A DNA stretch of 64,000 bases from Sulfurifustis variabilis (GTDB taxonomy: Bacteria > Pseudomonadota > Gammaproteobacteria > Acidiferrobacterales > Sulfurifustaceae): the NCBI RefSeq assembly GCF_002355415.1, contig NZ_AP014936.1:3447501-3511500 (forward strand), read 5' to 3'. The notes beneath the pieces are model-generated. The model made no database searches, was not told the DNA's origin, and was given only the letters and a program-made list of their open reading frames with translations. Each line of letters opens with the position of its first letter. Position 1 is the first letter of the stretch. Below, piece after piece: positions 12,790-56,777 of the stretch. Both the position numbers and the translations under genes were made by a program.

Positions 12790-13811
12790 TGTCCGGCGAG
12801 TTTTCGCGACAGTCCGACGAGCGCGTGGAGCTTGTCCTTCGCGCTACCGTCGGCCATGACGGCATGCGCCCGCTCGATTCCGGCGGCGAGGGTGGGCGTG
12901 AGCTCGGCCGCGTAGATTGCGGCACCCGCGTTGAGTGCGACGATGTCCCGCGCCGGCCCGGCCTCGTTGCTCAGAACCGCTTCGATCATCGACAGGCTTT
13001 CGGTCGCATTCGAAACCGCCACGTCGCGGACCCGCCCGCGCGCCACGCCGAACTGCTCCGGCGTGATGGTATAGCTCGTCACCTCGCCGTGCTTCAACTC
13101 CGCGACGTGGGTCGGCGCCTCGATGCTGATCTCGTCGAGCCCTCCCTCTGCGTGGACCACGAGCACGTGCTCACTGCCCAGCCGCGCAAGCACGTGTGCC
13201 AGCGGCTCCACCCATTGCCGTGCGAATACACCGATCACCTGGTAAGGAGCGGCGGCGGGGTTGGTAAGAGGTCCGAGCAGGTTGAAGATCGTGCGCACCG
13301 CCATCTCGCGGCGGGGACCGATGGCGTGTTTCATGGCCCCATGGTGGTTTGGCGCGAACATGAAACCGACACCCACCTCGTTCACGCACTGAGCCACCTG
13401 TTCCGGAGTGAGCGAGAGGCTCACGCCGGCGGCTTCGAGCACGTCGGCGCTGCCTGTCTTCCCGGAAACCGAGCGATTGCCGTGCTTCGCGACCTTGCCG
13501 CCGGCGGCCGCCACGACGAAGGCCGAGGCGGTAGAGATGTTAAACGTGCTCGCACCGTCGCCCCCGGTACCGCAGGTGTCCACCAGATGCGGGCCACTGA
13601 CCCCGACGCGCGTGCAGAGCTCGCGCATCACTTCGGCCGCAGCGGCGATCTCCTCGACGGTCTCACCCTTCATCCGCAGGCCGATCAGGAAACCGCCTAT
13701 CTGCGCGGCGGTGGCCTGGCCGGTCATGATCGTGCGCATGACCGCCCGCATGTCCTCGGCGGAAAGATTGCGCCGTTCGGTAACGGCGCGAATGGCGGAT
13801 GACATGTCCAT
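12786..13811 (-). CDS. trpD: Anthranilate phosphoribosyltransferase
   Basis: Joins anthranilate to PRPP. The 341-residue protein contains the PRPP/Mg motif [10 protein letters not shown], the [18 protein letters not shown] anthranilate region and [13 protein letters not shown]. The start ATG 13811 gives [13 protein letters not shown] 13805 is equally possible. The much longer open frame upstream overlaps trpG and is rejected. It is coupled to trpC by overlap and separated from trpG by 2 nt. Confidence 0.97.
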
Positions 13812-13813
13812 GC

Positions 13814-14395
13814 TCAGCTCGCGCGATGCCCGGTGAGGAAGTTCTCGAGCAGCTGATGACCATGCTGGGTCAGGATCGATTCGGGATGAAACTGCACGCC
13901 CTCGACCGCCAGCGACTTGTGGCGTACGCCCATGATTTCGCCGTCCTCTGTCCAGGCCGTAATCTCCAGGCACTCCGGCAGCGTCTCGCGCTCGATGACG
14001 AGCGAGTGGTACCGAGTGGCCTCGAAGGGGCTCGGCAGACCGCGGAACACGCCCTTCGCCGCATGATGGATCATCGAGGTCTTGCCGTGCATGAGCTCCC
14101 TCGCGCGCACGATGCACCCGCCGTAAGCCTGACCGATACTCTGGTGACCGAGACAGACGCCGAGTATCGGGACCCGGCCGCCGAGGCGTGCGATCACCGG
14201 CACGGAAATCCCGGCCTCGTTGGGCGTGCAGGGACCGGGGGAGATCACGATCCGCGCCGGCTCTAGCCGTTCGATATCGTCGAGCGCGATCTGGTCGTTG
14301 CGATACACGCGCACATCCTCGCCCAGCTCGCCCAAATACTGGACCAGGTTGTAAGTAAAGGAATCGTAGTTGTCGATCATGAGGAGCATGTTCAT
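13814..14395 (-). CDS. trpG: Anthranilate synthase glutamine amidotransferase
   Basis: Supplies ammonia from glutamine to TrpE. The 193 residues hold the class I amidotransferase triad: nucleophile C81 in LGVCLGHQ and the histidine/glutamate pair in VQFHPES. The start 14395 overlaps the trpE stop (ATGA); ATG 14389 (MLLMIDNYD) is an alternative. A single trpG between trpE and trpD suggests that it may also serve folate synthesis, but that cannot be told here. Confidence 0.97.
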
Positions 14396-41963: not shown

Positions 41964-43184
41964 TCAGTTGGCCGCCCGGCGCAGCGGCGGCGCCGCCTCG
42001 GCGCGCACGTCCAGGGCCTCGAAATCGACGCTGACGCGGTCCGGCGCCAGCGGCCAGAACTTCTCGTCCGCGAACGCGCGGTGCAGCGGGTGGTCGCGGT
42101 AGCTCTCGATCACCGCCCGGCTCGCGAACTCGACGAGCCAGCAGAAGCGGAAGCGCGGCTTGTCCGGGACCGCCCAGCCGGTGACGACCCGGCGCACGCC
42201 GGGGATGCGCGCGAGCACCTCGCGCCCCTCGGCCATCAGGGCGTCGACCGCGGCGTCGCCCGCCCCTTCGACGTTGTAGAGGATGACGTGCTGCAAGGAG
42301 CGCCACGGCCGGCACTGCATGAGCACCTCGGCGGCGCGGCCGGCCGATCCCCAGAGCCGCATGCAGCGCTCGGCCTCCTCGGCAATCGCGGCGCGCACGC
42401 CCCTGACGAGAGTCGTGTATCCCGCGGCGCCATTCGCCTTGGCGTTCGCCCGGATGCGGTCGCCCGCCGCGTCGGCGAGGGCCGTGTAGTAATTGATCTT
42501 GGCAACGCCGTTGGCGATCAGGCGCCGGAACTGTTCCTCCGCAAGCCCGGTACCGCCGTGGATCACGAGCGGAATCCGCAGCTCCTGGTTGATGCGCTTG
42601 AGCCGCTCGCAGTCGAGCTTCGGCCGCCCGCGCAGTCGACCGTGCACGGTACCGATCGAGACGGCGAGAAAATCGACGCCGGTGCGCTTGACGTAGGCCT
42701 TCGCCTCCTCGACGGAAGTGTAGACGACCTCACCCGGATGCTTTTCGGCGTCCTCGCCCTCGACGCCCGCCACGTACCCGAGCTCCCCCTCGACCGGCAC
42801 CCCGCAGGCATGTGCCATGGCGACGACGGCGCGCGTGCGCTCGACGTTGTCGAGGAACGCCTCGTGCGACGCGTCCACCATCACGCCGTTGGCGCCGAGG
42901 CGGATGGCGTTGACGGCGGAATCCAGCGAGGCTCCGTGATCGAGATGGATCGCGACCGGCACTTCCGCGCGCCGTGCGGCCGCCTCGGTCGCCGCCATGG
43001 CGAGCTCGAAGTCGTAGTGCTCGAAATGCGACTCGGCGAGCGAGAGGATCACCGGCGAACGGCAGCGCTCGGCGGCGTCGGTGATCGCCTCGAGAAAATC
43101 GAGGCTGACGAGATCGAAGGCGCCGACCGCGTAGCCGTTGCGGTAGGCGTGGTCGAGCATGTCGCGCATATCAACCAGAGGCAT
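41964..43184 (-). CDS. Class II fructose-bisphosphate aldolase fused to a Dabb domain
   Basis: A 406-residue fusion. Residues 1-285 are a class II aldolase: metal histidines in HLDHGAS and VIHGGTG, plus GYVAGVEG and KINYYTAL for phosphate. Residues about 295-390 form a stress-responsive A/B-barrel (Dabb) domain (LQHVILYNVEG...PDKPRFRFCWLVEF), which is not normally fused to aldolases. It overlaps the unknown gene upstream by 14 nt. The aldolase role fits the Calvin cycle, the Dabb part might regulate oligomerisation. Confidence 0.85.
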   Translation of the reverse strand: MPLVDMRDMLDHAYRNGYAVGAFDLVSLDFLEAITDAAERCRSPVILSLAESHFEHYDFELAMAATEAAARRAEVPVAIHLDHGASLDSAVNAIRLGANGVMVDASHEAFLDNVERTRAVVAMAHACGVPVEGELGYVAGVEGEDAEKHPGEVVYTSVEEAKAYVKRTGVDFLAVSIGTVHGRLRGRPKLDCERLKRINQELRIPLVIHGGTGLAEEQFRRLIANGVAKINYYTALADAAGDRIRANAKANGAAGYTTLVRGVRAAIAEEAERCMRLWGSAGRAAEVLMQCRPWRSLQHVILYNVEGAGDAAVDALMAEGREVLARIPGVRRVVTGWAVPDKPRFRFCWLVEFASRAVIESYRDHPLHRAFADEKFWPLAPDRVSVDFEALDVRAEAAPPLRRAAN

Positions 43185-43554
43185 GGTTCTCTCCTTGCGC
43201 CGCCGCCGCGAGGCGCAGACGCAGCGCGTCGGTCAGCGCATCGAGCGTCGTGCCCATCACGAGGCCGGCGTGGACGTGATAGACGTCGAGCCGGCACGCC
43301 ACCGGTGCGTGGAGGCTGGAACGGCCGCGGGTTTCGAAATCGAACCAGGCGAGCACCGGCGTGTCCTCGCGCGCCGCATCGACACACAGCCAGAGATCGT
43401 CGTCCAGGATCACCTCCAGCCCGCGATGGCGCGGCAGCCCAACACGCAACGGCGCGCCGAAGCGCAGCAGCGCCAGCCGCACGTGGTTGTAGCAGGCGGC
43501 GTCGATCTGCTTCGGGTACGTTCGCAAGGGAGTGCGCTCGACGCCCGCCGCCAT
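43171..43554 (-). CDS. Unknown RuBisCO-linked protein (paralogue of 48310-48696)
   Basis: A 127-residue protein of no recognised family. It aligns over most of its length with the protein at 48310-48696: YNHVRLALLRFGAPLR against FNQVRLALRRVGNPLR, GLEVILDDDLWLCVD against GLDLSLEDEAWVCVD, TPVLAWFDF against MPVLAWLGF, and LHAPVACRLDVYHVHA against LHLPVACELRYYHAHA. The start overlaps nothing, and its stop overlaps the aldolase start. It lies 13 nt after cbbX in the red-type RuBisCO operon, so a role with that enzyme is a reasonable guess. Confidence 0.7.
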   Translation of the reverse strand: MAAGVERTPLRTYPKQIDAACYNHVRLALLRFGAPLRVGLPRHRGLEVILDDDLWLCVDAAREDTPVLAWFDFETRGRSSLHAPVACRLDVYHVHAGLVMGTTLDALTDALRLRLAAAAQGENHASG

Positions 43555-43567
43555 CGCGCCGCGCCCT

Positions 43568-44494
43568 TCAGCTCTCGTCGTCCGCGGCGTCCCCGTCCGG
43601 GCGCCCTTCCTGGAACACGCGGCTCGCGCGCACGTCCTCCGCCTCGATCGTCATCAGGTCCTCCTTGGTCAGCGGCCGACCACGGCGCGCGAACAGCCGG
43701 TTCGCCTGCCGCAGGCGCGCGCGGTCCAGGGCGTTGCGTATCGAGCGCGCGTTCGCGAAGTGCGGCAGCTTCATGCGCAGATCGATGTACTCGGCGAACG
43801 CCTGCTCGCCCTCCGCGCTGAAGCGGTAGTTGAGGCCCGCGAGCATGAGCTTCGCGATCGCCAGGAGCTCGGCCGGCGCATAATCCGGGAAATCGATGTG
43901 GTGCGCGATGCGCGAGCGCATTCCCGGGTTGCTCAGGAAGAACCGGTCCATCTTGTCCTTGTAGCCGGCGAGGATCACGACCAGGTCGTCGCGGTTGTTC
44001 TCCATGACCTGCAGCAGGATCTCGATCGATTCCTGGCCGTAGTCGCGCTCATTCTCGGGCTTGTAGAGGTAATAGGCCTCGTCGATGAAGAGCACGCCGC
44101 CCATCGCCTTCTTGATGACCTCCTTGGTCTTGGGCGCGGTGTGGCCGATGTACTGGCCGACGAGGTCGTCGCGCGTCACGGTCACCAGGTGACCCTCGCG
44201 CACGTACCCCAGGCGCTTCAGGATCTCGCCCATGCGCACCGCCACGGTGGTCTTGCCGGTACCGGGATTCCCGGTGAAGTTCATGTGCAGCGTCGGCGTG
44301 GCCGAGGTGAGGTTGAGCTGCTTGCGCAGCCGGTCGACCAGGAGCAGTGCCGCGATCTCGCGAATGCGCGTCTTCACCGGCTTCAGGCCGACGAGCTCGC
44401 GGTCGAGCTTGTCCAGCACCTCCTGCACGTTGGAGGCACGGAACTCGGATTCGAGGTCCACCTGCATGTCCTGGGGCGTCGTTTGGGAATTCAT
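43568..44494 (-). CDS. cbbX: Red-type RuBisCO activase CbbX
   Basis: An AAA+ remodelling enzyme that frees red-type RuBisCO from inhibitory sugar phosphates. The 308 residues hold Walker A (GNPGTGKT), Walker B ([10 protein letters not shown]), sensor and arginine-finger region (SNPGMRSRI), and the ring-forming C-terminal domain. Start 44494 ([10 protein letters not shown]) follows GGAG and gives the usual CbbX length; ATG 44533 adds 13 residues and overlaps the DJ-1 gene. It follows the form IC cbbLS pair with one gene inserted. Confidence 0.93.
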
Positions 44495-44525
44495 CAACGT
44501 TGCTCCGACCGCGCCGATGCTGCTG

Positions 44526-45107
44526 TCACCCATGGGCAGCCTTCCGCGGCTCGTTTTGCCCGCGCGCCATGACCAGGCCGGCCTCGACCTCGTCGCGCTT
44601 GGCCCGGCCGGCAAGCATCTCCACGAGCGCCAGCGCGAACGGTATCGCGGTGCCGGCTCCGCGCGAGGTGACGAGCGAGCCGTCGACCACGACGTCGTCC
44701 TCGCGGTAATCGACGCCGCCGACCGCGACCTGTTCGCGGAATTTGGGGTTGCTGGTCACGCGCTTGCCGTCGAGCATCCCGTAGGCCGCGAGGATCGACG
44801 GCGCCGCGCAGATGGCGGCGGTGCGCTTGTCGCGGTAGCGCTCGAGCAGGGTCTTGATGCGCGCGTCCTCGCGCAGGTGCTTGACCCCCGGCATGCCGCC
44901 GGGCAGCACCAGCATGTCGAACTCCCGGCCCATGACGTCACCGAGGCGCGCGTCCGGGACCACGGTGGTCTCGCGCGAGCCGCGCACCGGCCCGTCTCCG
45001 AGCCCCGCCACCGTTACGCCGATCCCGGCGCGGCGGAGGATATCGATTACGGCGACGGCCTCGAGGTCCTCGAAGCCCTCCGCCAGCGGAAGTAGTACGG
45101 TTGCCAT
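44526..45107 (-). CDS. DJ-1/PfpI family protein (YajL-like)
   Basis: A 193-residue DJ-1 superfamily protein. The nucleophile cysteine is in AICAAPSIL (near residue 101), the acidic partner in EGFED at residue 14, and TSRGAGTA is conserved. YajL/DJ-1 relatives are linked to protection from reactive carbonyls and oxidised thiols. It stands between cbbS and cbbX, an unusual slot; triose and glyoxal by-products of the Calvin cycle could be its target, but that is speculation. Confidence 0.85.
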
Positions 45108-45133
45108 CTGTCGTCTCCGCAAGGTTTTCAGTC

Positions 45134-45168
45134 ACAGGAGTGGAGGTCGTCTTCGCCCCCACTCCTGT
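45134..45168 (-). terminator. Hairpin downstream of red-type cbbS, partial terminator
   Basis: A 10-bp perfect stem ACAGGAGTGG/CCACTCCTGT (45134-45143 with 45159-45168). On the minus strand it follows cbbS but is not followed by a strong T-run, so it may stabilise the 3' end of the cbbLS mRNA or reduce transcription into the DJ-1 and cbbX genes. Confidence 0.4.
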
Positions 45169-45200
45169 TTTCGACAGACTGATGTAGCGACTGCTCCGCG

Positions 45201-45635
45201 CTAATAGCGCTCGCCCTCCGGCTTCTCGGTGGCATACGGACGGATCGTGTAGCGAATCTGCCGTCCGTCGACCTCCTGACGCTCCAGCCCATAGCCCGGC
45301 TCCTTCTTCGGCCGGTTGACGATGAACGACATGCGCGGAGTCTCCCAGCCACGCGTCGAGTCGAACGCCGTCACGCGGACGTAGTGATTGGGGAACGTCT
45401 TGCGGCAGTTGTTGATCTCCATGAGGATGCCGGCCGGATCCTTGAGATCGAACATGGGCATGCCGAACATCTCCCAGTAGGTGTTGCGCGGGTGCGGGTC
45501 ATCCGTGTATTCGACGTTGACCGCCCAGCCGTTCTCGAGGGCGTACTTGATCTGCGCCGTGATCTGCTCGTCCGTCAGATCGGGCAGGAACGAGAACTGG
45601 CCCTGCGTAATGCGGTTGCCGTGATTGCTCATCAT
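45201..45635 (-). CDS. cbbS: RuBisCO small subunit, red-type (form IC)
   Basis: A 144-residue small subunit. The core reads [46 protein letters not shown], and a C-terminal extension ([14 protein letters not shown]...) of about 30 residues. That extension forms the beta-hairpin that lines the central channel in red-type enzymes and is absent from the green-type CbbS at 54856. ATG 45635 is used, and ATG 45632 is adjacent. It follows cbbL by 17 nt. Confidence 0.95.
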
Positions 45636-45652
45636 GATCGGATCCTCCTCTC

Positions 45653-47265
<1,613 letters not shown>

Positions 47266-47292
47266 GTCTATGTAACCCGGAGTTGCTCCGAA

Positions 47293-48273
47293 ATGCGCCA
47301 CAGCACGCTGCGCCAGCTCGAGGTGTTCGAGGCCATCGCCCGGCTCGGGAGCTTCACGCGAGCGGCCGAGGAGCTGTACCTGACGCAGCCCACCGTCTCG
47401 ATGCAGATCAAGAAGCTCTCGGACGCCGTCGGTCTGCCGCTCTTCGAGCACGTCGGCAAGAAGGTCTATCTCACCGACGCCGGGCGCGCGCTGCACGCCT
47501 TCGCGCGCGAGATCTTCGATCACTTCGCGCGGTTCGAGATGACGATCGCCGACATGAAGGGGCTCAAGAAGGGAACGCTCAAGCTCGCGGTGGTAACGAC
47601 CGCGAAGTACTTCGCCCCGCGCCTCCTCGGCCCTTTCTGCCAGCGATATCCCGGCATCGATGTCTCGCTCAAGGTCTCGAACCGCGAGCGTGTGCTCGAG
47701 CGCCTGGCGGAAAACCAGGACGATTTGTATATCCTGGGCCAGCCGCCGGAGGAGCTCGACGCGGTCGCCGAACCGTTCCTCGAGAATCCATTGGTCGTGC
47801 TCGCGCCGGCGAACCACCCGCTGGTCGGAAGGAAGATCCCGCTCGCACGGCTCGCGGAGGAGCCCTTTCTCATGCGCGAGCCCGGCTCGGGCACGCGCAA
47901 GGCGCTGGAGCGCCTGTTCGCCGCGCACGGGCTCGCGCTCAAGGTGCGCATGGAGCTCGGCAGCAACGAGGCGATCAAGCAGGCGATCGTCGGCGGGCTG
48001 GGCGTCTCGGTGCTCTCGCGGCACACCCTCGCCCTCGACGCACCGATGGGGCAACTCGCGGTGCTCGACGTCGAAGGCTTCCCCATCCCGCGTCACTGGT
48101 ACGTCGCCTACCCGGCGGGCAAGCAGCTTTCGGTGGTGGCCCGCACCTTTCTGGATTATCTGAAGCAGGCGCCGAAGCACGTGTCGGAGGTGCCGTGCCA
48201 CCACGCGAGCGTCGGCGAATGTCCGCTGCTGCCCGAGCCGACGACGAAGCGCAAGCGCTCGACGACGGCCTGA
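47293..48273 (+). CDS. cbbR: LysR-family regulator CbbR of the red-type operon
   Basis: A 326-residue LysR regulator. The N-terminal helix-turn-helix (MRHSTLRQLEVFEAIARLGSFTRAAEELYLTQPTVSMQIKKL) and the C-terminal ligand domain (REPGSGTRKALERLF, ELGSNEAIKQAIVGGLGVSVLS) match CbbR, which activates Calvin-cycle genes in response to metabolites. It is divergent from cbbL, the normal arrangement. A His/Cys-bearing tail (PCHHASVGECPLLP) of about 30 residues is longer than in typical CbbR. Confidence 0.92.
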   Translation: MRHSTLRQLEVFEAIARLGSFTRAAEELYLTQPTVSMQIKKLSDAVGLPLFEHVGKKVYLTDAGRALHAFAREIFDHFARFEMTIADMKGLKKGTLKLAVVTTAKYFAPRLLGPFCQRYPGIDVSLKVSNRERVLERLAENQDDLYILGQPPEELDAVAEPFLENPLVVLAPANHPLVGRKIPLARLAEEPFLMREPGSGTRKALERLFAAHGLALKVRMELGSNEAIKQAIVGGLGVSVLSRHTLALDAPMGQLAVLDVEGFPIPRHWYVAYPAGKQLSVVARTFLDYLKQAPKHVSEVPCHHASVGECPLLPEPTTKRKRSTTA

Positions 48274-48309
48274 GCCCGGCGCATGCCCGTCACTCCCAAC
48301 AGGAGCGAT

Positions 48310-48696
48310 CTAGAACGGGGAAGGATCGGGTGCGGGCTCGGCCGCGCGGAGCCGCGCGTCGAGGACATCGTCCATGAGCGCGAGCACCCTCGCGCGAATC
48401 ATGTCCGCGTGGGCGTGGTAGTAGCGGAGCTCACAGGCGACGGGCAGGTGCAGACCCGCCCGAGCGGCGGTCGCGAACCCGAGCCAGGCCAGCACGGGCA
48501 TGTCGTTGAGCGTGCGGTCCACGCACACCCAGGCTTCGTCCTCGAGCGACAGATCCAGCCCGCGCAGCCCGCCGAGCTCGAAACGCAGGGGGTTCCCCAC
48601 CCGTCGCAAGGCCAGGCGCACCTGGTTGAAACGCTGGGCCTCGATGGTGTCGGAAACGACGTGGTAGGCCGGCAGGTCCCGGAGGCGGTCGCTCAA
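48310..48696 (-). CDS. Unknown protein, paralogue of the cbbX-linked gene
   Basis: A 128-residue protein of no recognised family, similar along most of its length to the protein at 43171-43554 (shared VRLAL, GNPLR/GAPLR, WVCVD/WLCVD, PVLAW, LHLPVAC, YYHAHAD). There is no signal peptide or membrane segment. The gene stands alone, convergent with cbbR1 and divergent from a CbiM-like gene, between the two RuBisCO modules. It may serve the green-type enzyme as its paralogue may serve the red-type; this is inferred from position only. Confidence 0.65.
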   Translation of the reverse strand: MSDRLRDLPAYHVVSDTIEAQRFNQVRLALRRVGNPLRFELGGLRGLDLSLEDEAWVCVDRTLNDMPVLAWLGFATAARAGLHLPVACELRYYHAHADMIRARVLALMDDVLDARLRAAEPAPDPSPF

Positions 48697-48860: not shown

Positions 48861-49526
48861 ATGAACCTCTCGCACGGCATTCTGCCGGACCACCTGAACG
48901 CGATCGCCGCGGTCCTGTTCGCGCTCGGGCTGGCGCTGGCGCTCTGGCGCGCGCCGTGGGGCTACCTCAGGGAAGAACGCAACCTGCACGTATTCCTCGG
49001 CGCCTGCGTCGCGCTGATGCTGATGTGGACCGTGCGCGGCATGACCATCCCCGGCCTCGGTTACCACTATTTCGGCGCCACGCTGCTCACGCTGATGTTC
49101 GGCTGGCAGCTGGCGCTCCTGGGCATCTCGGTGGTGCTCGTCGGAACGGTGCTGAACCACTCGGGCGACTGGCTCAGCCTGCCGGTCAACGGGCTCGTGA
49201 TGGGCGCCCTGCCGATCGCCGTGAGCCACTTCCTCTGGCGGTTCTCGGAGCGTCGCCTGCCGAACAATTACTTCGTCTACGTCTTCGTCTGCGCCTACTT
49301 CGGCGCCGCCTTCGCCTTCCTCGCCGCGGCGCTCGCCGCGTCGGGTCTGCTGCTCGTTGGGACCCATCCGAACCCGGAGCAGCTCTTCAGCGAGTTCTTC
49401 CCCCTGGTCTTTCTCATGGCTTTCCCCGAAGCCTTCATCACCGGCTTCGTCATCTCGCTGCTCGCCGTCTACCGGCCCGCCTGGGTGCGGACTTTCGCGG
49501 ACGAACGCTACATCAAGGGGAAGTAG
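48861..49526 (+). CDS. CbiM-like ECF transporter permease, orphan
   Basis: A 221-residue membrane protein with about seven helices of the energy-coupling-factor CbiM family (LLTLMFGWQLALLGISVVLVGTVLNHSGDWLSLPVNGLVMGALP). The N-terminal MHIxDG metal motif of nickel/cobalt CbiM is not kept (MNLSHGILPDH instead) and no CbiN, CbiQ or CbiO gene is near. It may carry a different ligand or use another energy module. Its stop is one base from the zinc-ribbon gene stop on the other strand. Confidence 0.75.
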   Translation: MNLSHGILPDHLNAIAAVLFALGLALALWRAPWGYLREERNLHVFLGACVALMLMWTVRGMTIPGLGYHYFGATLLTLMFGWQLALLGISVVLVGTVLNHSGDWLSLPVNGLVMGALPIAVSHFLWRFSERRLPNNYFVYVFVCAYFGAAFAFLAAALAASGLLLVGTHPNPEQLFSEFFPLVFLMAFPEAFITGFVISLLAVYRPAWVRTFADERYIKGK

Positions 49527-49527
49527 G

Positions 49528-50130
49528 TCAGGCCGCGTCGCCGGAATCGCTCTTGCGCGCCTCCAAACGCTTCAAGAGATCGGCGGCCGCCGCGCGGACT
49601 TCCGGTGATACGTCCGGCGGCAGCGCTTTCAGAAGCGCCCGGACGCGCTGAAGCTGCCGCTCGTGGAAGATGCCCGATTCGACCAGCGACAGGCAGCACT
49701 CGGCCATCTCGAGGTCCTGCTCGACGGTGCGATCGGACGCGTGGAACAGCTCCTCATACCGTTCGCGCCGACGGTCGAGACCGTGTCGCCTTTTCCGGCA
49801 ATCCACGCATCGCACGCAATCGGACTCGAGCGGAAAACCGAGCTCCTCGTACCAGTATTTCTGTTCCTCGGCGAAAAAGATGAACGACCGGCCGCAGTCG
49901 CGGCATTCGCGCCGCGCGTCGAAATAATGCGTCACGGGAACGGTGGCCGGGGACTGCCGGGAAAGGTCGGCGGCGATCGCCGTATCGGGGATCCGGCTTC
50001 CCGGCGGAGAATGCCAGTGCAGGAAGACGTTCTCGCCCTCTCCCGGCTCGGGATTGAGGCCCGTGATCCGCGGCCGGCGACCGTACCGCGGATGCGTGAC
50101 GAAACGGCTGTAGTCGTCTGTCGTTGTCAT
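49528..50130 (-). CDS. Zinc-ribbon domain protein at the end of the green-type RuBisCO operon
   Basis: A 200-residue soluble protein with a probable zinc ribbon: CRDCGRSFIF near residue 79 and CVRCVDCR near 108 supply four to five cysteines (the PF13451-type probable zinc-ribbon domain). The middle FFAEEQKYWYEELGF is characteristic. The C-terminal 60 residues are helical and acidic. It follows SemiSWEET by 45 nt, so it is probably the last gene of the cbb operon. Function unknown. Confidence 0.75.
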   Translation of the reverse strand: MTTTDDYSRFVTHPRYGRRPRITGLNPEPGEGENVFLHWHSPPGSRIPDTAIAADLSRQSPATVPVTHYFDARRECRDCGRSFIFFAEEQKYWYEELGFPLESDCVRCVDCRKRRHGLDRRRERYEELFHASDRTVEQDLEMAECCLSLVESGIFHERQLQRVRALLKALPPDVSPEVRAAAADLLKRLEARKSDSGDAA

Positions 50131-50174
50131 GTGCGATCCCGCGGTGGCGCTCGATTCCGGCGGAGCCGGACGCC

Positions 50175-50429
50175 TCACTTGTACCGCAGCTTGAAGAAGA
50201 CGATGACCGCCGCGAGGGCGAAGGTAATGCCGTTGGCGATGACGATGGGTGGCGAGCCGATCTGCACGCCGTAAAGCAGCCACAGGAGCACGCCGAGGGC
50301 GAACAGCGCGAACATGCCGAGCGAAATGTCCTCGGTCGAGCGGGTACGCCAGGTCTTCACGACCTGGGGAACGAACGCGGCGGTCGTGAGGCCGCCGGCG
50401 ATGAGGCCGAGGACGTTGGCGGCTTCCAT
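50175..50429 (-). CDS. SemiSWEET sugar transporter
   Basis: An 84-residue three-helix membrane protein with the PQ-loop motif FVPQVVKTWRTRSTEDIS, hallmark of SemiSWEETs, which dimerise to form a sugar uniporter. Start ATG 50429 overlaps the carbonic anhydrase stop (TGATG), so the two are translationally coupled. A sugar channel in a RuBisCO operon is unusual and could export or balance Calvin-cycle sugars, but its substrate is unknown. Confidence 0.9.
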   Translation of the reverse strand: MEAANVLGLIAGGLTTAAFVPQVVKTWRTRSTEDISLGMFALFALGVLLWLLYGVQIGSPPIVIANGITFALAAVIVFFKLRYK

Positions 50430-51162: not shown

Positions 51163-53496
51163 CTAGCGGGTGAGGCCGGCGTAAAGCAGCGGCAGACGTT
51201 CGGGAAGGCGCTGTACGTGGTCGACGACCATGTAACCCTTCGGCCCGAAGATGCGCGAGACGTAGTCGTCGGCGCGAGGGTCGAGCGTGAGGCAGAATGT
51301 GCGCACGCCCCTCGTCGCCAGCTCCTCCACCGCCTTCTTGGTATCGTGGCGCAGGTACTGGGGGTCGCGCACGTCGATGTCGGCCGGCTCGCCGTCGGAC
51401 ACGAGCAGGATCAGCTTCTTCTGCTCGGGCTGCCTGAGCAGGAACGACGCCGCGTGGCGCAATGCGGCGCCCATGCGCGTCGAGAGGCCGCCCCGCATGC
51501 CGGCGAGGCGCGCTTTGGCCTCGTCGCCATAGCGATCACCGAAGTCCTTGAAGCGGTAGTACTGCACGTCGTGGCGGCCGTCGGAGGCGAAGCCGTGGAT
51601 CGCGAACGGGTCGCCGACCCGGTCGATCGCCCAGGACAGGAGCGAGGTCGCTTCGCGCGCGAGCTGGATGACGGGCCGGTCCGAATCGCCGAGCTTCTCG
51701 TTGGTCGATTCCGAGAGGTCGAGCAGCACCAGCACGGCGAGGTCGCGCACCTTGCGCTCGATCCGGATGTTGATTCGGGGGTCCGGCGTCTGGCCCATGC
51801 GGATGTCGATCATCGCCCGAATGGCGGCGTTGAGGTCGATCTCCTCGCCGTCCTCCTGCCGCCGGAAGCGCTGCACGCCCTCGGGCTGCATCGCGTCGAT
51901 GATGTGCCGCAGGCGCGAGGCGATGGGCCGGTGCGCGGTCAGGATACGGTCTATCTCCCCGGGATCGCCCCGCTTCTGGCGCTTCTCGAGCACGGTCGCC
52001 CAGTTCGGCCGATGCAACTGCACCGTGTAGTCCCATTCCGCGTAGTGGTGGGGCTCGGAGACGGGTTCCTTCCCTTCCATTTCGTTGATCGTGCGACCCT
52101 CCTGGTCGAGGTAGAACGGCGTGTCGAGCACCCAGATCTCCTGGGCGTCATCGCCGGCCAGCTCGCAGTCCACCTCGTTCGCCATCTCCATGGCGGTCAC
52201 GTACTTGCGCACCTGTTTGGGCGCGGGCACATACTCGGCCGCCGCCCAGGCGATCTCGTCCGATGCCCAGCAGTAGCGGTTGTCGTCGCGGTACGGGATG
52301 CCCATGGACTCGAGCACCCGCAGAGAGGGAATCGCGCCCCGCTCGCCGAGGCGGTTGTGCAGGGTCACGCCGAGATCCCACGAAAGCCCGTTGTCATCGG
52401 CCCGGCGTGCGAACTCCTCGCGGAAGGCGCCGGTCATTTCGCGGATCAACGCGTCATCGTCGACGTAGCGCTCGTCGAGGAGCGCGTACGCCAGCCGCTC
52501 GAGCAGGCTCACGACCGGATCGGTCGGGCAGCTCACCTCGCGGACCTTCGCGTGAAACTGCGCCCAGAGCGCCTTCATGCCCGGGAAGTCGCGCAGCGCC
52601 AGGCCCTCGATGCGCGCGTCCTCGAAGACGCCGATCAGGAACATCTGCGCCGGGCTGAGCTGCTCCATGGAAAGCGGGTGCGTGGTGTAGACGAGGTGCG
52701 CGGCCGCGTGCGCGGCCGCGGCGCGGTAGAGTTCCCTTCCCGGCAGCCCGGCATAGTCGTCGTAGGCGTCGGGCAGGTGGATCACGCGCGACTCGATGAA
52801 CGGACGGTAGCCCTCGCGCGTCTCGTAGTCGCCGGAAGTCGGGCGCATGAAGAAGTCCCGGCCCCAGAAAGCGCGCAGGTAGAAGTTGAGCTTGCGCTGG
52901 TGGTCGATGAAGAGGACGCCGCGCCGCTCCTTCTGGAGCATCGCCTGGCTGTCGGCGCTCTTGAGATCGAAGTAGGCGATCTGCGCCGGGAAGTCGCGCA
53001 GGTGCGCCTGGGCGCCCCAGAGCGCCCAGCGGCGCAGGCCGCCGAGAGTCAGCTTCGCGAAGAGCTCGTCGACATGCGACAGCATGGGCCGCAAACCGCG
53101 CGGGACCTTCGCCGACAGCTGGTGGATGAGACCGAGATAGCCGCGCAACAGCTCGGCATCGCCGAGCCGGCCGGCCGCGGCGGGGAGCGTATCGAAGAGG
53201 AGCTGGATCACCTCGCCGCTCACCATGGAGGCGAGCTTCATGGCGGCCGTGACGCAGTCCTTGATGACGTCCTCGCCGACCTCCTTGACGACCGCCGGCA
53301 TCTCCTGGATGTAGGTGACGACGAGGTCCCTCCCGCGCCCGAGCTCCGAGAGACCGCGCGCGCCCTCGAGCCAGTTGTGCAGGCCGGCCGGCGACATGAC
53401 GCGCGCCGCCTCGGCGAAGCTCGCCGCCAGCGTGTCGTGCACGTGGGCGTCGATGCGCTCGAGCGTCTCCCTGTAATCGTCGAGCTGGATGCTCAT
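51163..53496 (-). CDS. cbbO: RuBisCO activase adaptor CbbO
   Basis: A 777-residue VWA-domain protein that docks the CbbQ AAA+ ring onto green-type RuBisCO. The metal-ion site (MIDAS) DLSES lies near residue 591 in LVLLDLSESTNEK, followed by the GDPFAIHGFASDGRHDVQYYRFKDF and VSDGEPADI loops. The N-terminal two thirds form the CbbO helical region. It follows the small unknown gene by 117 nt that contain repeat copy 3. Together CbbQ and CbbO reactivate inhibited form I enzyme. Confidence 0.94.
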   Translation of the reverse strand: MSIQLDDYRETLERIDAHVHDTLAASFAEAARVMSPAGLHNWLEGARGLSELGRGRDLVVTYIQEMPAVVKEVGEDVIKDCVTAAMKLASMVSGEVIQLLFDTLPAAAGRLGDAELLRGYLGLIHQLSAKVPRGLRPMLSHVDELFAKLTLGGLRRWALWGAQAHLRDFPAQIAYFDLKSADSQAMLQKERRGVLFIDHQRKLNFYLRAFWGRDFFMRPTSGDYETREGYRPFIESRVIHLPDAYDDYAGLPGRELYRAAAAHAAAHLVYTTHPLSMEQLSPAQMFLIGVFEDARIEGLALRDFPGMKALWAQFHAKVREVSCPTDPVVSLLERLAYALLDERYVDDDALIREMTGAFREEFARRADDNGLSWDLGVTLHNRLGERGAIPSLRVLESMGIPYRDDNRYCWASDEIAWAAAEYVPAPKQVRKYVTAMEMANEVDCELAGDDAQEIWVLDTPFYLDQEGRTINEMEGKEPVSEPHHYAEWDYTVQLHRPNWATVLEKRQKRGDPGEIDRILTAHRPIASRLRHIIDAMQPEGVQRFRRQEDGEEIDLNAAIRAMIDIRMGQTPDPRINIRIERKVRDLAVLVLLDLSESTNEKLGDSDRPVIQLAREATSLLSWAIDRVGDPFAIHGFASDGRHDVQYYRFKDFGDRYGDEAKARLAGMRGGLSTRMGAALRHAASFLLRQPEQKKLILLVSDGEPADIDVRDPQYLRHDTKKAVEELATRGVRTFCLTLDPRADDYVSRIFGPKGYMVVDHVQRLPERLPLLYAGLTR

Positions 53497-55252: not shown

Positions 55253-56683
55253 TCACTTATGCGCCACGTCGAGCTTGTCGACGGTGTCGAACTCGAACTT
55301 GATCTCCTTCCACGTCTCCATGGCGATCTTGAGCTCGGGCGAGTGCTTGGCCGCGGCGGTGAGGATCTCCTTGCCCTCCTTCTCGATCGCGCGGCCCTGG
55401 TTGCGGGCCTCGACGCAGGCCTCGAGGGCCACGCGGTTGGCCGCCGCACCCGCGGCGTTGCCCCACGGATGGCCGAGCGTGCCGCCGCCGAACTGCAGCA
55501 CCGCGTCGTCGCCGAAGATCGTCACGAGCGCCGGCATGTGCCAGACGTGGATGCCGCCGGAGGCGACGGCGAAAGCGCCCGGCATGCTGCCCCAGTCCTG
55601 ATCGAAGAAGATGCCGCGCGAGCGGTCTTCCTTCACGAACTTCTCGCGCAGCAGGTCGATCCAGCCGAGCGTCGAGGCGCGGTCGCCCTCGAGCTTGCCG
55701 ACGACCGTGCCCGTGTGCAGGTGATCGCCGCCCGAGAGGCGCAGGATCTTGGTGAGCACGCGGAAGTGGATGCCGTGGTGCGGGTTGCGGTCGAGCACCG
55801 CGTGCATGGCCCGGTGGATGTGCAGTAGCAAACCGTTGTCGCGGCACCAGTTGGCGAGACCCGTGTTCGCGCAGAAGCCGCCGGTGATGTAGTCGTGCAT
55901 GATGATCGGCGCGCCCAGCTCCTTCGCGTACTCGGCGCGCTTGTACATCTCTTCGGGCGTCGGCGCCGTGACGTTCAGGTAGTGGCCCTTGCGCTCGCCG
56001 GTCTCCTTCTCCGCCTTGTGGATCGCCTCCATCACGAAGTCGAAGCGCTGGCGCCAGCGCATGAACGGCTGGCTGTTGACGTTTTCGTCGTCCTTGGTGA
56101 AGTCGAGACCGCCGCGCAGGCACTCGTACACGGCGCGGCCGTAGTTCTTCGCCGAGAGGCCGAGCTTCGGCTTGATGGTGCAGCCGAGCAGCGGACGGCC
56201 GTACTTGTTCATGATGTCGCGCTCGACCTGGATGCCGTGCGGCGGGCCGCCGCAGGTCTTCACGTAGGCGATCGGGAAGCGCACGTCCTCGAGACGCAGC
56301 GCGCGGATGGCCTTGAAGCCGAACACGTTGCCGACGAGGGAAGTGAACACGTTCACCACCGAGCCTTCCTCGAAGAGATCCATCGGGTAGGCCACGAAGG
56401 CGTAGAAACAGGTATCGTCGCCCGGAACGTCCTCGATGCGGTAGGCGCGGCCCTTGTAGAAGTCGAGGTCGGTCAGCAGGTCGGTCCACACCGTGGTCCA
56501 GGTGCCGGTGGACGACTCGGCGGCGACCGCCGCGGCGGCCTCTTCGCGCGGCACGCCCGGCTGCGGGGTGATCTTGAAGCAGGCGAGGATGTCCGTGTCC
56601 CTGATCTTGTAATCGGGCTCCCAGTACGTTTCCCGGTACTCCTTCACGCCTGCCTTGTAAGTCTTCACATTGCCTTTGGACAT
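55253..56683 (-). CDS. cbbL: RuBisCO large subunit, green-type (form IA)
   Basis: The second RuBisCO large subunit, 476 residues. Catalytic motifs are [19 protein letters not shown] with the carbamylated lysine, HIHRAMH and [10 protein letters not shown]. The short N-terminus ([20 protein letters not shown]) and [25 protein letters not shown] are form IA features. The absence of carboxysome genes and presence of cbbQO suggest a free cytoplasmic enzyme for higher CO2. ATG 56683 has a GAGGAG site; GTG 56689 is an alternative. Divergent from cbbR2. Confidence 0.97.
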
Positions 56684-56777
56684 GACCACTCCTCTTTCGG
56701 AAATCGGGGTCGCGGGCCGCGCCCGCTCGTTCAGGCGCGCACCTTACGCCAGGCGTACCATAAAATAAATTAAGGCT

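Follow-up and report, generated by a model that had tools for sequence, protein, structure and literature searches.

Two small genes of Sulfurifustis variabilis, here named Xa and Xb, encode related proteins that, judged by sequence, belong to an undescribed protein family (X) of about 115-130 residues. Both lie in a stretch of 64,000 nucleotides of the genome (contig NZ_AP014936.1, positions 3,447,501 to 3,511,500), called the window below, which carries one red-type and one green-type RuBisCO module (Table 1). In the class tested, core members of the family are almost confined to genomes that encode RuBisCO, and the commonest place of an X gene is that of the gene after a RuBisCO activase, either cbbX or cbbO. 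X is probably an accessory protein of RuBisCO or the Calvin cycle that would serve as a small binding or assembly factor, a function that we infer from the evidence set out here.

The pair and the search for a known family

The initial annotation had described Xa and Xb as two related open reading frames, and both the frames and their relationship were recovered: 50 of 102 aligned residues (49%) are identical in an ungapped BLASTP alignment (94 bits, E 8e-31). Under other settings the pair scores 100 bits, against a best score of 24.6 for shuffled Xb (908 of 1000 shuffles gave any match). The shared strings listed in that annotation are present, except that the last motif reads Y-H-x-H-A and not Y.HAH. 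As it had also said, Xa begins 13 nucleotides after cbbX and overlaps the aldolase gene, the overlap being 14 nucleotides, and Xb stands alone between the two RuBisCO modules. Xb is convergent with cbbR and divergent from a CbiM-like gene. A promoter-like match (48769-48741) lies upstream of Xb; it is weak, because the region holds two such matches against a shuffle mean of 0.8. A third copy was found neither with Xa at E 10 nor with an X profile (A3) at E 0.001 in the S. variabilis genome.

No family had been recognised in the initial annotation, and the library searches agree. Neither Xa nor Xb matches a Pfam or NCBIfam model at E 1, and none of 37 aligned X members (alignment A4) matches any such model at E 0.01. 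The search of PHROGs with the pair returned a single row at E 0.32, the PDB sequence search was empty for alignment A1 and gave two rows, both at E 1.3, for A4, and the plasmid search with Xa gave no match at E 0.001. Literature searches on cbb operons and Sulfurifustis turned up no paper naming the family.

Co-occurrence with RuBisCO and its activases

Of 60 kin genomes, 36 gave a match to Xa. Profile A3 matched 74 of the 276 genomes in a draw from the class and 10 of the 397 in a draw from the phylum. All three counts include the S. variabilis genome. The class draw was searched at the same settings for the RuBisCO large subunit (151/276 genomes, E 1e-10) and CbbX (27/276, E 1e-80), as well as for CbbO (108/276 at E 1e-60, of which 23 were judged by hand to be weaker than the form I type); that these searches covered the same 276 genomes is concluded from their identical settings, identical counts and matching handles, the genomes without a match being mostly unlisted. 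Ten of the 74 X genomes, with weak (divergent) X, and 13 of the 151 genomes with a weak best RuBisCO match were set aside before counting. RuBisCO is present in 63 of the 64 core-X genomes of the class draw versus 75 of the 212 genomes without core X (Fisher test, 4e-22, uncorrected for relatedness). Among the 64 are G080, its sole copy being placed by the tree in the divergent clade, and G104, in which the X copy contains a stop and gave no frame at its locus (L158). The RuBisCO match of G104 is weak (E 1e-70) and was kept because it is cut at a contig end; without this genome the count is 62/64. In the sole exception, G318, which shows no RuBisCO match, X lies after cbbO and the contig is 4,965 nucleotides long (L153). 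Strong RuBisCO matches also accompany the divergent members in 9 of their 10 genomes, and in the phylum draw all nine X genomes besides that of S. variabilis have RuBisCO, the 387 genomes without X lying outside this RuBisCO search. The test of co-occurrence suggested in the initial annotation therefore shows a strong tie both to RuBisCO genomes and to cbb operons, and neither a concentration of core homologues in heterotrophs nor, in the libraries searched, a known unrelated family came to light.

Within the 138 RuBisCO genomes, a form-I-type CbbO occurs in 55 of the 63 with X and in 28 of the 75 without it, and cbbX in 19/63 and 8/75, respectively, a weaker tie than that of CbbO. Seven X genomes have neither CbbX nor a form-I-type CbbO, which argues that X is not simply an activase subunit. 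Of the 27 cbbX genomes in the class draw, 16 are without an intact red-lineage X (the 12 red-lineage genomes in the class-draw counts were assigned by hand from the tree).

Gene neighbourhoods

Opening 118 loci, one of which (L158) gave no X frame, yielded 122 X genes besides Xa and Xb. Left out were locus L173, which duplicates L004, and L070 (G015), whose copy is split over two frames; the matched places left unopened include those in G047, G049, G050, G055, G215, G228, G237, G296, G325 and G328. The labels "red" and "green" follow from chosen distance limits and BLAST comparison to the window genes, with the frames between X and its neighbours uncurated. On this basis, 25 of the 103 core genes follow a red-type cbbX or cbbS, 35 follow a green-type cbbO within 1.5 kilobases (kb), an arrangement that does not include Xb of the window, and 13 follow the aldolase gene (fba) of a glycolytic operon. 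A RuBisCO or activase gene lies within 5 kb on the same strand for 70 of the 103. Among 62 listed gaps between cbbX or cbbO and X, 33 are shorter than 40 nucleotides, as in operons; each frame was taken from its earliest possible start codon, which makes the gaps approximate.

The 37 genes of the red clade comprise 24 after red cbbX or cbbS and 13 after fba, the label directly before fba being pyruvate kinase in 11 of these 13 loci. The other 66 core genes are found after cbbO (35), by a Dabb-type aldolase (4), by cbbM (2), near other RuBisCO genes (2), after cbbX (1) and without a recognised cbb neighbour (22), and the 19 genes of the divergent clade after cbbO (4), by suhB (4), near RuBisCO (1) and elsewhere (10). 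A fixed link between X and aldolase was considered and dropped, a same-strand aldolase lying within 1.5 kb of 24 of 105 X genes. The divergent copies by suhB precede that gene (L051, L055, L124 and L188), and for this reason hyp3 of A. ferrooxidans, the first gene of the cbb3 operon, was considered as a possible divergent X; it was dropped because a passage in PMC6458275 annotates it as a 16S RNA methyltransferase family protein.

Some loci show further features. Two tandem X copies follow cbbQ-cbbO in L049 (4011-4352 and 4389-4730, + strand). Nine of the 13 glycolytic-operon loci, and also L044, have a DUF302 gene (for example L061:8531-8950, - strand) directly after X. In L139 a second protein, about 140 residues long and without a Pfam match, is encoded between cbbS and cbbQ (13472-13900, - strand), and by BLAST label a gene of this type occupies the same slot in several green operons (for example L053, L109, L117, L146 and L149); a conserved hypothetical gene in the cbbS-cbbQ slot is mentioned in a passage of PMC6908604.

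Lineages and RuBisCO type

The X tree (124 rows, 126 columns) was built by a quick search and is poorly resolved, with a star on 20 of its 121 inner branches. One side of the tree (fork support 94) holds 25 of the 26 red-labelled rows, including Xa, and no green-labelled row. The red and green labels change twice over the tree, whereas 200 shuffles needed at least 16 changes and 20.3 on average. The X lineage of red operons is distinct from the copies in green operons. Xb lies outside the red side and is likely the green copy. Its nearest row by path, with weak support, is L041, a cbbO-linked copy from an order-level relative that carries a cbbX-linked copy too (L040). The fork joining Xb and L041 has support 80 and holds seven mixed rows, including the red-labelled L038 and a copy beside cbbM. 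By identity Xb is closest to L103 (52%), a copy without a cbb neighbour.

The initial annotation had proposed one paralogue for each RuBisCO type. The part of this proposal that stands is the separation of cbbX-linked and cbbO-linked lineages, Xa falling inside the red lineage and Xb outside. A strict pairing, on the other hand, fails. Among the 13 opened genomes with a red-lineage X after fba, cbbX is present in eight, once as a partial gene at a contig end, and five show neither cbbX nor red cbbL, the best cbbL match in these five (G027, G032, G040, G048 and G054) reaching 56-58%. Completeness is 99% for G027, G032 and G040, and the absence is less sure in G048 and G054 because these are 91% and 80% complete. 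G206 has a red-type cbbS (PF00101; L118:9015-9335, + strand) directly before a red-lineage X; neither a cbbX match nor a red cbbL was found in this genome, whose single RuBisCO large gene is green-type. Red-lineage X is therefore found without red RuBisCO in two settings. The cbbX genomes without an intact red-lineage copy and the weakly supported placement of Xb also speak against the strict form. In G197, the cbbX-adjacent copy is most like red-lineage X and is split over two frames.

Predicted fold and conserved residues

AlphaFold models built from 8 sequences assign both window copies one confident predicted fold, with a mean predicted local distance difference test score (pLDDT) of 88.3 and a predicted template modelling score (pTM) of 0.80 for Xa, and 91.9 and 0.83 for Xb. 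The core order is the same in the two models: a strand, a helix, five strands and a long C-terminal helix. Foldseek found no PDB match to the Xa model and no match in a viral fold library at E <=0.001. In the VIA structural ranking, the functional domain of Atp11 (PDB 2p4f) comes first for both Xa and Xb, with Z 6.2 over 108 residues (root-mean-square deviation 3.9) for one model and Z 6.5 over 105 residues (3.6) for the other; the next row has Z 4.4 in both. Lower rows include phosphoglucomutase domains, START, PR-10 proteins, Aha1 and KA1 domains, which we take to be one broad fold group that would fit a binding module.

Residues conserved in both core groups are, in Xa numbering, A19, N23, R31 (97% and 74% in the two groups), W55, P66, W70, F73, R78, L81, P84, C87, Y92 and H93, and N23, R31, W70 and R78 are also invariant in the 19 divergent rows. 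P9, R11, P14, G97, L98 and M100 are common in the red lineage. R37, D59 and D64 are common outside the red lineage and not within it, although Xa itself retains all three.

Possible function

We propose that X is a small binding protein that helps to assemble or maintain RuBisCO, with a probability of about 0.4. X would serve the Calvin cycle in chemolithoautotrophic Proteobacteria and would contact either RuBisCO, as subunit or holoenzyme, or its activase, the candidate contact residues suggested by conservation being N23, R31, W55, W70, F73, R78, P84, C87, Y92 and H93. By analogy to assembly chaperones or activase partners, it may help to assemble or maintain the active enzyme, and the partner may be tuned by residues varying from one lineage to another, located in the N-terminal segment and where the last helix begins. 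The proposal draws on the co-occurrence of core X with RuBisCO, the operon positions and their small gaps, the separation of red and green labels on the tree, the association with form-I-type CbbO and with cbbX inside RuBisCO genomes, and the first rank of Atp11, an assembly chaperone, for both models. A more specific version, in which X is an assembly or maintenance chaperone for red and green form I RuBisCO with an Atp11-related fold and one tuned copy per RuBisCO, appears unlikely.

Several observations weigh against the proposal of a RuBisCO assembly or maintenance factor. Core X is lacking in 75 of the 138 RuBisCO genomes, and the seven X genomes without CbbX and form-I-type CbbO belong here as well. 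G183 carries a divergent X and no RuBisCO match was found in it. Under the distance limits used, no cbb neighbour was recognised for 22 of the 103 core copies; 13 sit after the glycolytic-operon aldolase, five of them in the genomes with neither cbbX nor red cbbL. The Z scores of Atp11 are below the trust level of 8 and may mean only a common arrangement.

A role in the handling of sugar phosphates, in which X would bind or dispose of RuBP (ribulose-1,5-bisphosphate)-like inhibitors or tune flux, in a CbbY-like or CP12-like manner, would fit both RuBisCO and gap-pgk-pyk-fba operons. The 13 core copies after fba, the neighbouring aldolases of 24 of 105 X genes, the conserved polar residues N23, R31, R78, C87 and H93, the phosphoglucomutase domains among the weak fold rows and the presence of red-lineage X where red RuBisCO was not found are consistent with it. 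CbbY is a phosphatase of XuBP (xylulose-1,5-bisphosphate) encoded after cbbX in Rhodobacter, an operon slot that X genes also occupy; however, X shows no HAD-family or other Pfam match, which also separates it from CP12, and no match to any enzyme or ligand-binding family. Considering in addition that the mutase rows reach only about Z 3-4 and that 60 of the 103 core copies follow cbbX, cbbS or cbbO, we regard such a role as somewhat unlikely. That X most often comes straight after cbbX or cbbO at a short distance, and that it is enriched with both activases inside RuBisCO genomes, might instead indicate a dedicated partner, adaptor or regulator, of CbbX and CbbQO. This seems rather improbable, given the X genomes that lack both CbbX and form-I-type CbbO and the 16 of 27 cbbX genomes without intact red-lineage X; moreover, CbbX and CbbQO are distantly related machines, and a partner family shared by the two would be unexpected. 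Finally, X could have a general role in chemolithoautotrophs and be merely co-regulated with cbb genes, as the 22 core copies and 10 of 19 divergent-clade genes without a recognised cbb neighbour, together with G183, may suggest. The occurrence of RuBisCO in 63 of 64 core-X genomes and the separation of red and green copies by operon type argue against this, and we consider it quite improbable. For the role that the initial annotation had proposed, as an assembly, activase or metabolic factor, we infer assembly or maintenance of RuBisCO as the best explanation.

Comparison with known systems

RbcX, Raf1 and the pterin-dehydratase-like acRAF are small RuBisCO accessory proteins that act as assembly factors. 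The Pfam and NCBIfam libraries hold these families, whereas none of the 37 X members matches any of their models at E 0.01. The fold of RbcX is all-helical, unlike the mixed strand-helix models of Xa and Xb. According to a review (PMC9833100), no homologue of Raf1, Raf2, RbcX or BSD2 is found where an organism's RuBisCO is of the red type. The likeness of X to Atp11 is that of the first fold row; identity is 9-10% and Z is below 8, and the Pfam search of the 37 X members gave no match to the Atp11 family, nor did any PDB chain match below E 1.3. Atp11 is an assembly chaperone of the F1-ATPase; it is mitochondrial and belongs to an unrelated pathway.

The gene cbbN was reportedly described by Wei et al. 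in 2004 as the fifth gene of the cbbLSQON operon, after cbbO, in Nitrosomonas europaea. Compared by position only, it resembles the 35 of 103 core X genes that follow cbbO, in a form IA operon; X differs in being found also after cbbX, after fba and alone, and Xb of the window does not follow cbbO. A passage in one paper gives the Nitrosomonas operon as cbbOQSL, and literature searches for cbbN and cbbLSQON returned no relevant paper. Should X prove to be CbbN, some of its members would have carried a positional name since 2004.

Genes around the pair

The features of the window are collected in Table 1. According to PMC5024460, Sulfurifustis variabilis skN76T possesses two RuBisCO enzymes, one of form IA and the other of form IC. 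A DJ-1/PfpI-like gene likewise lies between cbbS and cbbX in L048, and a CbiM-like gene is also found after carbonic anhydrase and a divergent X in L162.

Table 1. The X pair and neighbouring genes, numbered from the first position of the window
Feature	Position	Strand	Remarks
Class II aldolase with C-terminal Dabb domain	41964-43184	-	PF01116 and PF07876
Xa	43171-43554	-	127 residues; in the cbbLS-DJ1-cbbX-Xa-fba gene run; red-lineage member
cbbX, red-type RuBisCO activase	43568-44614	-	TIGR02880, 530 bits (cut-off 459); directly upstream of Xa
DJ-1/PfpI family gene	44526-45122	-	PF01965; inside the red operon, between cbbS and cbbX
Red-type cbbS	45201-45632	-	Named by position after cbbL; translated, outside the Pfam scan
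Red-type (form IC) cbbL	45653-47131	-	Contains PF00016 match G000:C1:3493225-3494148; red by its place beside cbbX
cbbR, LysR family	47293-48273	+	PF00126/PF03466; best NCBIfam match CbbR, below its cut-off
Xb	48310-48696	-	128 residues; TTG start; single gene; outside the red lineage
CbiM-like membrane protein	48861-49526	+	Between the two RuBisCO modules
Treble-clef (zf_Tbcl) protein	49528-50283	-	Between the two RuBisCO modules
cbbO of the green (form IA) module	51163-53496	-	VWA domain; named by position after cbbL, cbbS and a CbbQ-like ATPase
Green-type cbbL	55253-56689	-	NF003252, 810 bits; second RuBisCO module

Implications

If X is indeed a chaperone, it would be, to our knowledge, the first assembly factor for a bacterial red-type RuBisCO. 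RuBisCO depends on helper proteins, and the lack of them can limit its transfer to crops and other hosts. X, a family with no Pfam or NCBIfam match that is tied to red and green operons across many autotrophic Proteobacteria, is a direct candidate for a helper of this kind, and one small gene makes the question of what else RuBisCO may need testable.

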